NCBI GenBank assembly: GCA_030611725.1
Contig: JAUWPG010000002.1
Span: forward strand, 1 to 51,896
DNA length: 51,896 bases
Direction of reading: 5' to 3'
From: Gammaproteobacteria bacterium
GTDB lineage: Bacteria; Pseudomonadota; Gammaproteobacteria; PS1; Pseudothioglobaceae
Both the position numbers and the translations under genes were made by a program. A model generated the notes under the pieces. The model saw nothing but the letters and a program-made list of their open reading frames with translations, ran no database searches and had not been told where the DNA came from. This document shows positions 13,108 to 31,421 of the stretch, piece after piece; the stretch's first letter is position 1; every line of letters begins with the position of its first letter.

Positions 13108-13395
13108 TTAAACGCCTAACTGGGTTTCTTTTTTAAGCTTTGGGCCTGCTTTAAAGGTAACCACTTTTCTAGCAGAAATCAAAACCTGTTCACCAGTTTT
13201 AGGGTTTCTACCAGGTCTAGCAGATTTTTCTCTAACAATAAAATTACCAAAGCTAGACAGTTTTACTGCTTCACCGCTTGCAAGTGCAGCTTTAATTAGA
13301 TCAAAAAAATCATTGGTGATTGACAATGCCTGATTATGATTTACACCAATACCTTCAACCAACAAATCTGCAATGTCTTTTTTAGTGACTGACAT
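13108..13395 (-). CDS. ihfA: Integration host factor subunit alpha
   Basis: IHF is a DNA-bending nucleoid protein of two related subunits. The 95-residue protein has the HU/IHF fold, with the DNA-intercalating tip GRNPKTGE (62-69) carrying the key proline. Its place directly after pheT (1-nt overlap) is the classic proteobacterial position of ihfA, which decides the subunit. The C-terminal tail after FKAGPKLK is short. It would pair with an IhfB encoded elsewhere. HU itself is encoded at 29045-29320. Confidence 0.95.
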   Translation of the reverse strand: MSVTKKDIADLLVEGIGVNHNQALSITNDFFDLIKAALASGEAVKLSSFGNFIVREKSARPGRNPKTGEQVLISARKVVTFKAGPKLKKETQLGV

Positions 13396-15758
13396 TATCT
13401 TTGGGTGGCTGAGAATTTGTTTTGCATCAAGGCCAAAACTTCATCTACCTTTGCATTTACCTCATCATCTGCCAACGTACCTTCTAATGACTGATAAGTT
13501 AAATTCAATGCAACACTCTTTTTGCCAGATTCGATATTTTCACCGGCATAAACATCAAATAAACTCACACTCATAAAATGAGGCTGTTTAAGACGCTCAA
13601 TGCTTTGCATAAGGTCAGCTATTGGTGTGGCTTCATCAAGTACCAGGGCAATATCTCGTTGAGTCTGTTGGTACGACGAAAATGCCTCATATTTAGCAAT
13701 TTTTCCAGTTAGCATAACGTCAAGATCAATTTCGAATAAATAACACTTAGACAGTGACAATTCTTTTTGTACTAATGGTGATAAAGCACCAATCCAACCT
13801 ACTTGTGTGTCATTCAATACAATCTTAGCTGTTTGTCCTTTTTGCAACGCAGGGTGTTCAGCAGCTTCAAAAGAAAACTGTGCGCCAGTTAGTATTAATA
13901 ATGATTCTAAATCAGCCTTAGCATCAAAGAAATCTAGTGGCTGAATATCACTAGACCACTGTGAGTCAAAACGATTTCCTGATACAACGCCGGCTAATTT
14001 ATTAGACTGCTCATCTGCTTGAACACCCTCAAAACATAAACCAATTTCAAAAAATCTGGCATCAGTGTGGCCACGCCTTTGATTTGATTCAACTGTTTGC
14101 AACAAGCCTGCCCAAAGTGATGAACGCATGGTTGACATATCAGCCGATATTGGATTAGATAATGTAATTTTCTTAGCATCTGGATCAATCAAATTATGAT
14201 ACTTTTCAGACACAAAACTATAAGTGATAACCTCTTGATAACCACGACTAACTAATGCTTGCATAACGTCGTACTTGTCAACACTAGACTCTTGAATAGC
14301 GTCAATATTAGCATCTAGAGAAAGTTTTTGTACTGGCAGCTTATCGTAACCATAAAGCCTTGCTAACTCTTCAATTAAATCTGCTGGAATACGAATATCA
14401 AACCTAAAGCTTGGCGGAATAATAGTCCAAGAATTATCAGATTTATTGCTAATTTCAAAATCTAAATTGGTGAATTTTTCTTCAATCCAGCTTGATTCTA
14501 GTTCAAAGCCTAAGATTTTCTGAATTTTTTCTTGAGTAATGATGATTGGTGTCAGCTCTGGTAATTCGTTTTCGTCAACACAAGTGTTAATATCACTGGC
14601 TTCACCGCCACAAATATCTATAATTAACTGCGTTGCCCTATCCATTGCAACTTCAGTAATATTGAAATCTACACCACGCTCAAAACGAAGTGATGATTCG
14701 GTATGCAAGCCATAACTTCTTGCCTTGCCAGCTATAGAAACCGGTTCAAAAAAAGCGCTTTCTAACAAAATTTGGGATGAATGATCTTGTGTAGAACTGC
14801 TCATACCACCCATTACACCTGCAATTGCTAGTGGGGCCGAGTCATCGGCAATAATTAGAGTGTCGTCGTTTAATTCGACTGTTGTTTCATTTAACAAGTC
14901 TAGCTTCTCGCCAGATTTAGCCATACGGACATCAATAGAGCCATTTATTTTAGCCACATCAAAGGCATGCATTGGCTGACCTAACTCTAATAAAACATAA
15001 TTGGTAATATCAACCACCGGAGAATGCACTTGCTGGCCTGAGCGTATTAGCTTGTCAGTCATCCATTTAGGAGTTTTAACAGTGTTGTCAACCCCTTTTA
15101 TGGTTCTGGTTAAATACTTCGGACAAGCTTGTGTATTGCTTACACCGGTGTTAATACTTGATTTACCTTGTGCACTAACTTCAAACTTAGGCATGTCAAA
15201 CGCCATGTTGTAATTAGCACTTACTTCACGTGCTACACCCAGTACTGAGAAACAATCACCACGGTTCGGGGTAATATCTAATTCGATAATATTATCATCA
15301 AGATCTAAATATTCTCTAATGTCTTGACCAATCGGCGCATCACTGTCAAGCTCTGAAATACCGTCCGATGAATCACTCATGCCGAGTTCTGATTCTGAGC
15401 AAATCATACCAAAGGAAGCTACGCCGCGTAGTTTGGCTTTTTTAATTTTTAAACCACCTGGTAATTTTGCGCCAACCGTTGCAACAATTACTTTTAAACC
15501 AGTACGTACATTTTTAGCACCGCAGATAATTTGTAAGTTTTCATCGGCACCAACATCTACATGACACAAATTTAACTTATCAGCATCCGGGTGTTTTTCA
15601 CAGCTAATTATATGACCAACCACAACTTTATCGAAAGCCGGCGCGACAGATTCAATGCCGTCGACTTCAAGGCCGGCCATCGTAAGTTTCTCAGCCAATA
15701 CTTTGTCACTTACATTAGGATTAATCCATTCTCGCAACCAAGAAGTTGAAATATTCAT
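13395..15758 (-). CDS. pheT: Phenylalanyl-tRNA synthetase beta subunit
   Basis: PheT forms the (alpha-beta)2 enzyme that charges tRNA-Phe. The 787-residue protein has the normal domain order: N-terminal EMAP-like tRNA-binding domain (about 40-150), B3/B4 editing domain (about 210-380), B5 domain (about 400-470), the catalytic-like core, and a C-terminal FDX-ACB domain (about 690-785). Length matches E. coli PheT (795). It starts 4 bp after pheS and its end overlaps the ihfA start by 1 nt. No frame damage is seen. Confidence 0.97.
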   Translation of the reverse strand: MNISTSWLREWINPNVSDKVLAEKLTMAGLEVDGIESVAPAFDKVVVGHIISCEKHPDADKLNLCHVDVGADENLQIICGAKNVRTGLKVIVATVGAKLPGGLKIKKAKLRGVASFGMICSESELGMSDSSDGISELDSDAPIGQDIREYLDLDDNIIELDITPNRGDCFSVLGVAREVSANYNMAFDMPKFEVSAQGKSSINTGVSNTQACPKYLTRTIKGVDNTVKTPKWMTDKLIRSGQQVHSPVVDITNYVLLELGQPMHAFDVAKINGSIDVRMAKSGEKLDLLNETTVELNDDTLIIADDSAPLAIAGVMGGMSSSTQDHSSQILLESAFFEPVSIAGKARSYGLHTESSLRFERGVDFNITEVAMDRATQLIIDICGGEASDINTCVDENELPELTPIIITQEKIQKILGFELESSWIEEKFTNLDFEISNKSDNSWTIIPPSFRFDIRIPADLIEELARLYGYDKLPVQKLSLDANIDAIQESSVDKYDVMQALVSRGYQEVITYSFVSEKYHNLIDPDAKKITLSNPISADMSTMRSSLWAGLLQTVESNQRRGHTDARFFEIGLCFEGVQADEQSNKLAGVVSGNRFDSQWSSDIQPLDFFDAKADLESLLILTGAQFSFEAAEHPALQKGQTAKIVLNDTQVGWIGALSPLVQKELSLSKCYLFEIDLDVMLTGKIAKYEAFSSYQQTQRDIALVLDEATPIADLMQSIERLKQPHFMSVSLFDVYAGENIESGKKSVALNLTYQSLEGTLADDEVNAKVDEVLALMQNKFSATQR

Positions 15759-29044: not shown

Positions 29045-29320
29045 CTATTTATTAACTGATTCTTTAAGTAATTTACCTGCTTTAAATGCTGGCACTTTAG
29101 ATGCTTTAATTTGGATTGCTGCACCTGTTTGTGGGTTACGACCAGTGCGTGCTGCACGGTCTCTTACTAAAAAGCTACCGAAGCCTGTAATTGCTACGTT
29201 ATCACCACCTGCTAAAGCACCAGTGATTGCACCTGTTGTTGCGTCTAATGCGCGAGCCGCATCTGCTTTTGTTAAACCTGAAGTTTCTGCAATTACTGCT
29301 ACTAAATCTGATTTGTTCAT
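29045..29320 (-). CDS. hupB: DNA-binding protein HU (beta type)
   Basis: HU is an abundant, sequence-tolerant nucleoid protein that bends DNA. The 91-residue protein starts [12 protein letters not shown] and has [20 protein letters not shown] with the intercalating proline at the arm tip. It ends [13 protein letters not shown]. It is close to E. coli HupB, and ppiD nearby fits the hupB neighbourhood. CAGGAG lies upstream of the ATG, and a good sigma70 promoter lies about 75 bp before it. The GC content of this gene is visibly higher than its surroundings, as expected of a highly expressed gene. Confidence 0.96.
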
Positions 29321-29432: not shown

Positions 29433-29465
29433 GAAAAAAAATAAAAATTCTAATTATTAGAATTT
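29433..29465 (-). terminator. Terminator-like palindrome at the ccmG stop
   Basis: AAATTCTAAT (29445-29454), a central T, and ATTAGAATTT (29456-29465) form a perfect palindrome that contains the ccmG stop codon (29450-29452). On the minus strand a T-rich run follows (TTTTTATTTTTTTT). The stem is AT-only apart from two pairs, so it is weak. Confidence 0.5.
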
Positions 29466-30088
29466 GCTAATATTTTTAACTTATTAATTAATGGCAGTAT
29501 TTCGTTTTGCCAGACATTGGGCGTAACTTCGCCAAGGTGTTTAAATACAATCACGCCTTTGTCATCAACTAAAAAAGTCTCAGGAACTCTATATACGCCC
29601 AACTCTAAGCCCAAACTTCCCAGCTCATCAAAGATAACAAAATCAAATGGATTGCCAAGCATGCTTAAAAAACAATCGCCAAAATTAGTGTGATCCCGAT
29701 CCGCCCTAACACAGCTACTCAATTTTTTTTTGTCTTTATAATTAATACCAACCATTTGCACTGTATTGGTTTTGGCTATTTTGATTAACATTTTATGTTC
29801 TGCATGACAAGTGAGACACCAAGATGCCCAAACATTCACCAGTGATATTTTATTATTAAGCTTGTTTTGAGTGAAATATTTCTCACCAGAATGAAAATCT
29901 TCAACTTCCAGGTTTGGAAAACTTTTACCAATGAGTGGTGAAGGCAGTTTTTTAGGATCTTTTCCCAGGCCCTCTAGTAAAAACCAGGCCAATACAACAA
30001 ACAAAATCAAAGGTAAAAACTTTTTACTAGAATTTACCAATACTTTTAACTTATTAATTAATGCTAGTGTCTCGTTTTTCCAGCTCAT
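29450..30088 (-). CDS. ccmG: Thiol:disulfide interchange protein CcmG (DsbE), with self-repeated ends
   Basis: CcmG is a membrane-anchored thioredoxin-like protein that reduces apocytochrome c haem-binding cysteines. The 212-residue protein has an anchor at about 24-40 and the active site WCLTC (C91, C94). The family tail GVYRVPETFLVDDKGVI is present. Two oddities stand out. Residues 3-21 repeat residues 193-211 (WKNETLALINKLK against WQNEILPLINKLK). The C-terminal copy matches normal CcmG (E. coli VWEEEIKPL), so the N-terminal one is the addition. Second, an extra loop of roughly 14 residues around 120-140 brings Cys126 and Cys139. It overlaps ccmE by 1 nt (TAATG). The gene seems functional. 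Confidence 0.9.
   Translation of the reverse strand: MSWKNETLALINKLKVLVNSSKKFLPLILFVVLAWFLLEGLGKDPKKLPSPLIGKSFPNLEVEDFHSGEKYFTQNKLNNKISLVNVWASWCLTCHAEHKMLIKIAKTNTVQMVGINYKDKKKLSSCVRADRDHTNFGDCFLSMLGNPFDFVIFDELGSLGLELGVYRVPETFLVDDKGVIVFKHLGEVTPNVWQNEILPLINKLKILANSNN
29458..29513 (-). repeat. Direct repeat copy 1 (3' end of ccmG)
   Basis: These 56 bp match 30028-30083 at about 48 of 56 positions (counted by eye), offset by exactly 570 bp, which is 190 codons. The central TTTTAACTTATTAATTAATG is identical in both. This copy encodes the normal C-terminus of CcmG. Confidence 0.85.
30028..30083 (-). repeat. Direct repeat copy 2 (5' end of ccmG)
   Basis: This is the partner of 29458-29513. It encodes residues 3-21 of CcmG, upstream of the membrane anchor, where the family normally has only a few basic residues. 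Confidence 0.85.
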
Positions 30089-30510
30089 TACTTCTGTTTC
30101 TCTGCCTTCTTTAAAGCATCGGCTACCTCAGGTGGCATGTAATTTTCATCATGCTTGGCGAGCACTTCCGTTGCTACAAATGTACCATTGACTAGTGATC
30201 CTGTGGTGATAATACCTTGGCCTTCTCTAAATAGGTCTGGCAAGATACCGGTATATTGAATGTTGAATTTGTTTTTATTGTCAGTTACATCAAAATTCAC
30301 CGTCATGTCCTTACGCTTAACACTACCATTACCTACCAAACCACCAAGACGAAAACTTTTTCCAATAGGCGCCTTGCCTTCAGTCACTTCAGTCGGGGAA
30401 TAAAAATAATTAGTATTGCTACCTAATGCTTGAAACAATAAAGTCGCTGCCAACACCGCACCTGCCACTAGCAGGGCAACAAAGACCATTCTATTTTGCC
30501 GTTTAGTCAT
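30088..30510 (-). CDS. ccmE: Cytochrome c-type biogenesis haem chaperone CcmE
   Basis: CcmE binds haem covalently in the periplasm and hands it to the ligase. The 140-residue protein has an N-terminal anchor (about 9-28), an OB-fold domain, and the haem attachment motif AKHDENYMPPEV with His120 and Tyr124. Both key residues of the classic HxxxY type are present. It starts 9 bp after ccmD and overlaps ccmG by 1 nt. In most gammaproteobacteria ccmF comes next. Here ccmG does. Confidence 0.96.
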   Translation of the reverse strand: MTKRQNRMVFVALLVAGAVLAATLLFQALGSNTNYFYSPTEVTEGKAPIGKSFRLGGLVGNGSVKRKDMTVNFDVTDNKNKFNIQYTGILPDLFREGQGIITTGSLVNGTFVATEVLAKHDENYMPPEVADALKKAEKQK

Positions 30511-30519
30511 AATAATCTC

Positions 30520-30681
30520 TCATGATTTTCTTGAATATTTAATACGTAACTGGGTTATTGCTTTTTTGTGAATTGAACGGGTTCTAATAAATAAAATAGC
30601 AATTACTAAAAAAGTTATAAAATACGAAAACCATATATAGTAAGCATATTTATCAAATGATAATAAAGTCAAAAGTTCCAT
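30520..30681 (-). CDS. ccmD: Haem exporter protein CcmD
   Basis: This small gene has 53 codons. The frame from ATG 30681 to TGA 30520 encodes MELLTLLSFDKYAYYIWFSY, one membrane helix (FITFLVIAILFI), then a basic tail (RTRSIHKKAI...). That is the standard CcmD layout: a short N-terminal part with Tyr/Trp, one span and a basic cytoplasmic end. Its start overlaps the ccmC stop by 1 nt (TAATG) and ccmE begins 9 bp later. CcmD helps release haem-loaded CcmE from the CcmABC complex. Confidence 0.92.
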   Translation of the reverse strand: MELLTLLSFDKYAYYIWFSYFITFLVIAILFIRTRSIHKKAITQLRIKYSRKS

Positions 30682-31421
30682 TACTTATCACCCTCCATCA
30701 CAATTTCCTTAACCCAGCGTGAATTTTGCTCTCTTACCAAGATTTCATCTCTAGCACGCATTAACACTAGCGTACCATACAAAAACTTAAAAGCAAAACT
30801 AATTAGCAGTAACGCGTAAAACATATCTATTTGCATAGAAACTTTGGTCACACTCACGGACGAGCCTTGATGCAAACTGTTCCACCATTCTACTGAGTAA
30901 TAAATAATGGGAATATTGACCAAACCAACAATAGCCAAAACAGAAGATGCTTTTGAAGCAGTTTTTGGATTGTCAAATGCATTGTTTAGTGATATATAAG
31001 CCAAGTATAAAAACAACAAAATTAACTCAGAAGTTAAACGCGCATCCCATACCCACCAAGTACCCCACATTGGCTTACCCCAAACTGCACCTGTAACCAA
31101 CGCCAAAAAAGTAAATGCTGCGCCAATTGGTGCAGAAACTGAAGCCACCACATTGGCCAACTTGATTTGCCAAATAAGACCAATACCGCCAGCAGTAGCC
31201 ATCACCACATAAATAAATAAACTCATCCAGGCAGCGGGCACATGCACATACATAATACGCACACTCTCGCCTTGCTGGTAATCAGCTGGTGATACAATTA
31301 AAGCCCAATACAAACCAACAAGTGTTAGAGCGATAAACGGGTACCAAAACCAAGGGATAATTTTTTCACTAATTCGATAAAAATTTTGTGGTGAGGCAAA
31401 TGCCTGAATCCATTTCCACAT
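30681..31421 (-). CDS. ccmC: Haem transporter/handling protein CcmC
   Basis: CcmC presents haem to CcmE. The 246-residue protein has six membrane helices and the tryptophan-rich WWD motif WGTWWVWDARLTS (about 119-131). The haem-ligand histidines H60 (YVHVPAAW) and H184 (NSLHQGSS) fall at the same numbers as in E. coli. It is the first gene of this partial ccm cluster. Upstream is tsaB, 30 bp away, rather than ccmA and ccmB, so the export ATPase parts must be elsewhere if present. Confidence 0.97.
   Translation of the reverse strand: MWKWIQAFASPQNFYRISEKIIPWFWYPFIALTLVGLYWALIVSPADYQQGESVRIMYVHVPAAWMSLFIYVVMATAGGIGLIWQIKLANVVASVSAPIGAAFTFLALVTGAVWGKPMWGTWWVWDARLTSELILLFLYLAYISLNNAFDNPKTASKASSVLAIVGLVNIPIIYYSVEWWNSLHQGSSVSVTKVSMQIDMFYALLLISFAFKFLYGTLVLMRARDEILVREQNSRWVKEIVMEGDK

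Follow-up and report, generated by a model that had tools for sequence, protein, structure and literature searches.

The ccmG gene of one gammaproteobacterial species repeats its 3' end directly behind its own start codon

In the window, the 51,896-nucleotide stretch of DNA analysed here, the cytochrome c maturation gene ccmG most probably carries a species-specific, short dispersed intragenic duplication, placed in frame behind a start codon that is still in use and kept as a tolerated passenger. In the lineage of one species, the 3' end of the gene would have supplied a copy of about 60 nt that now stands just behind the start codon, with translation still beginning at the ancestral ATG that overlaps the ccmE stop codon. 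CcmG would thereby have gained some 20 cytoplasmic residues ahead of its membrane anchor, most likely without a selected function. Sequence comparison establishes the copy, its absence in relatives, its direction, net length and frame, and the later divergence of both copies.

The repeat within ccmG

The gene (Table 1) scores 158.3 bits against the DsbE/CcmG model TIGR00385 (cut-off 123.15). Its product shares the anchor, WCxxC site and fold, and presumably the gene order, of known CcmG/DsbE proteins, which are membrane-anchored, thioredoxin-like components of cytochrome c maturation System I that reduce the thiols of apocytochrome c or CcmH. It differs from them in a longer C-terminus and in 20 additional residues ahead of the anchor, a copy of its C-terminal helix. 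W90, C91 and C94 are invariant in an alignment of 28 sequences, and an AlphaFold2 model places the anchor helix at residues 22–40 and the C-terminal helix at residues 190–210. The upstream ORFs at 30088–30510 and 30681–31421 are, from their sequences, presumably ccmE and ccmC; together with ccmD, also named from sequence, they would give the order ccmC-ccmD-ccmE-ccmG, which we take to be the usual one.

Table 1 Features of ccmG and its upstream neighbour in the window
Feature	Position	Strand	Remarks
ccmE, upstream neighbour of ccmG	30088..30510	(-)	ORF; identity presumed from sequence and gene order
ccmG (dsbE family)	29450..30088	(-)	212 aa, with N-terminal extension
Ancestral ATG start of ccmG	30086..30088	(-)	overlaps ccmE stop codon as TAATG
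Inserted copy, ~60 nt	30024..30083	(-)	56-nt core 30028–30083 matches tail; ends uncertain within a few nt
Membrane anchor, ancestral CcmG N-terminus	29966..30019	(-)	residues 24–41
CxxC active site, C91-L-T-C94	29807..29818	(-)	alignment
Donor, 3' end of ccmG encoding C-terminal helix	29454..29513	(-)	repeat alignment

An earlier note on this DNA had described 56 bp of the ccmG tail recurring at its head with about 86% identity, 190 codons apart, and our measurements bear this out: the blocks at 30028–30083 and 29458–29513 are identical at 48 of 56 positions (85.7%) with a spacing of 570 nt, or 190 codons, whereas the best 56-nt self-match among 200 codon shuffles of ccmG reached 34/56. The encoded segment WxNExLxLINKLKxLxNS is likewise present at both head and tail, as that note had read it. 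No other self-match in the window is as strong as this repeat (blastn E 2.6e-12). Searching the genome, a 1.16-Mb draft in 81 contigs, with the insert aligned 60 nt at 85% to the tail (29454–29513) and revealed no third copy; a mobile repeat as the source was rejected, the next best genome match being 23 nt long with an E value of 0.14. Short dispersed (non-tandem) segmental duplications and templated insertions likewise involve tens of bp, lie about 0.5–2 kb apart and keep the same orientation; compared with typical examples, the ccmG copy stands out in being in frame and in lengthening the protein at its head.

Comparison with relatives and the route of copying

The N-terminal extension was found in none of eight congeners, nor in the other family members inspected, in a comparison that includes one genome of the source species, presumably an uncultured marine bacterium of SUP05/Thioglobaceae type; named relatives at congener-level identity include the MAGs Gammaproteobacteria SZUA-1130 and 'Candidatus Ruthturnera sp. 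co234_bin14', and one congener gene (G006) loses its 3' side at a contig end with its start visible. In the congeners and other inspected family members, CcmG starts with M-x-K-F-x-P-L right at the anchor, whereas the window protein starts with M-S-(copy)-S-K-K-F, its head reading (M)SWKNETLALINK from the ATG at 30088, a net gain of 20 codons (60 nt) in frame. Since the relatives start with M-x-K-F, we read this as a net in-frame 60-nt insertion directly behind the ancestral start codon, lying between that codon and the ancestral second or third one.

The TAATG overlap between the ccmE stop and the ccmG start is common to the window genome, G008, G033 and G052, and the longer start context AACAGAAGTAATG to the window genome and G008. 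The absence of the extension in relatives, together with an ATG that still overlaps the ccmE stop, marks the tail as donor and the head copy as new, as the earlier note had proposed; the alignment of close relatives suggested there places the appearance of the extension in the species lineage of the window genome alone. By this comparison, the head block is a copy, from tail to head, of the 3' end of the same gene. The tail of another species as source of the insert was rejected: AATAAGTTAAAA and AATTCTA occur in both copies and are absent from congener tails.

Two routes would give this same product, a collapsed tandem duplication and a one-step templated insertion, and the sequence does not decide between them. 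Along the first, a possible if doubtful course, ccmG would have been duplicated in tandem, the repeated unit running from near codon 2 to shortly ahead of the stop codon, and the first copy then mostly deleted, so that its tail became joined to the second copy; this is a route within the preferred explanation and no alternative to the copy itself. The insert does sit exactly at the tail-to-head junction; however, its position is not discriminating, because selection for the reading frame favours gene ends anyway. The scheme also requires two independent rearrangements with unrelated ends and has left no intermediate in any congener. We found a single ccmG-type locus in the genome, and no intermediate or second full ccmG beside ccmG in the congeners, although such a copy may have been lost. 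Both junctions would also follow from a one-step templated insertion, and the collapsed tandem put forward in the earlier note is not specifically favoured. The junctions are clean, with microhomology read by eye only; relatives differ in the ancestral second codon, which leaves the ends of the insert uncertain within a few nt, and neither route is favoured. Close bacterial precedents were sought in the literature and nothing specific was found, the matches being mostly human-genome work on template switching.

Small changes at gene ends also occur in the congeners, with indels or other alterations at the ccmE and ccmG ends of G003 and altered ccmG starts in G001, G002 and G006, consistent with tolerance of the extension. 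In G003 (L010), about 30 bp are tandemly duplicated at the ccmE end, and KLEKLEKLE repeats close the ccmG tail. A scan of 414 kb of the window genome turned up a few further short dispersed copies, which shows that events of this kind are not confined to ccmG.

Several further repeats were observed. Within L086, positions 323–378 and 1994–2050 are 93% identical over 57 bp; they are separated by 1.67 kb and lie near the 3' end of a hemH-like gene and before another ORF. Within L084, positions 13425–13538 and 13770–13888 are 77% identical over about 119 bp, a stretch that takes in the 5' region and the signal peptide of two adjacent lipoprotein-like ORFs. L080:58-1368 is a long, coding-like repetitive stretch with spacings of 72–81 nt. 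In the window itself, 13129–13297 and 29060–29228 are 59% alike, and, the second lying in an HU-like gene (29045–29320), they probably represent two HU-type paralogues.

Translation and function of the extension

The frame of the extension has stayed open across about eight substitutions; with the start codon upstream, a stop or frameshift would cost the cell CcmG itself, and the open frame therefore cannot separate function from neutrality. The earlier note had also raised a functional amphipathic helix on the cytoplasmic side, and one that anchors or regulates CcmG under selection we consider very unlikely. A helix is predicted at residues 3–20, and the net charge of +2 would suit the cytoplasmic side; however, the hydrophobic moment of 0.28 is lower than that of the tail and is equalled by 28% of shuffles (p 0.28), model confidence is low (pLDDT ~61–63, against ~83–85 over most of the C-terminal helix), and the extension occurs in a single species. 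Similarly improbable is translation from an internal TTG (codon 17, 30040), which would turn the copied segment mostly into 5' leader: an in-frame TTG is present in the copy, but neither the ancestral ATG nor the context upstream of it has changed, G008 having the same, and no good ribosome-binding site precedes the TTG by eye.

Given the low pLDDT, the ordinary moment and a frame that CcmG requires, we regard the extension as a passenger that is probably translated and tolerated, and the head copy has the look of a common, harmless mutation and not of a new device. A bolder and likewise very improbable proposal is that the copied C-terminal helix was kept at the head for its usefulness, perhaps by pairing on the cytoplasmic side with the membrane or with a Ccm partner; if true, the tail, which in part was recently non-coding spacer, would have been reused to give the protein a new element in the cytoplasm. 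Unless the extension proves functional, the copy holds little that is new for cytochrome c maturation.

Divergence of the copies and other changes in CcmG

Relative to the congeners, the head copy appears derived at about five sites (GAG, ACA, CTA, GCA, GTA) and the tail at two to three (CAA, and ATATTAG where the head has GTATTGG), with polarity assigned by inspection, some sites ambiguous and some dependent on the alignment of a short AT-rich 3' spacer. The insert retains AAA and GTATTGG, states that several congeners also show, and the tail retains GAA, ATA, CTG, CCA and GCA. The copies differ at 8 of 56 positions, a corrected divergence of about 0.16 or 0.08 per copy; as the terminal branch measures 0.167 substitutions per site, this would date the duplication roughly halfway along the species' terminal branch, with a wide error from the few sites. 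An assembly or strain-mixing artefact is very improbable even in a draft of 81 contigs, since eight differences, some apparently derived in the head and others in the tail, argue against a simple assembly error, and the reading frame is intact, whereas misassembly usually yields an identical copy. The copy is genuine and rather old, and ccmG offers a dated, polarised case of a bacterial protein gaining a terminal extension from its own gene.

The donor end apparently had a history of its own, having already absorbed former spacer sequence. The earlier note had taken the C-terminal copy to match ordinary CcmG; this holds insofar as it is the original tail, but not for its end, about ILANSNN, which is probably a lineage-specific run into former 3' spacer. 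Other CcmG proteins of the clade end at LINxLKK or a few residues later, whereas the window protein continues LKILANSNN, and the extra tail codons resemble the spacer behind the ccmG stop codon of G004 and G005 (GGTATTGGYAAA). Shuffled spacer reached the head-copy score in 9 of 3000 trials for G004, 69 of 3000 for G005 and 605 of 3000 for G002, and the tail score in 19 of 3000 for G001; the more distant G003 and G008 gave no signal in these shuffles. Suggestively, the ancestral ccmG stop was probably lost first, by a run into the 3' spacer, and the lengthened tail copied later.

A separate change lies at CcmG residues 124–136 (window 29681–29719), where we observed a 13-aa insertion (SSCVRADRDHTNF) plus a second new cysteine at position 139, accompanied by VYRVPET in place of VYATPET and by an active-site CxTCH in place of CVTCR. 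In the alignment, this set is common to the window genome and six congeners, and is not found in G003 or G008. The insertion is perhaps more interesting than the head/tail repeat, and with the new cysteine it might possibly provide an extra disulfide or an altered redox partner.
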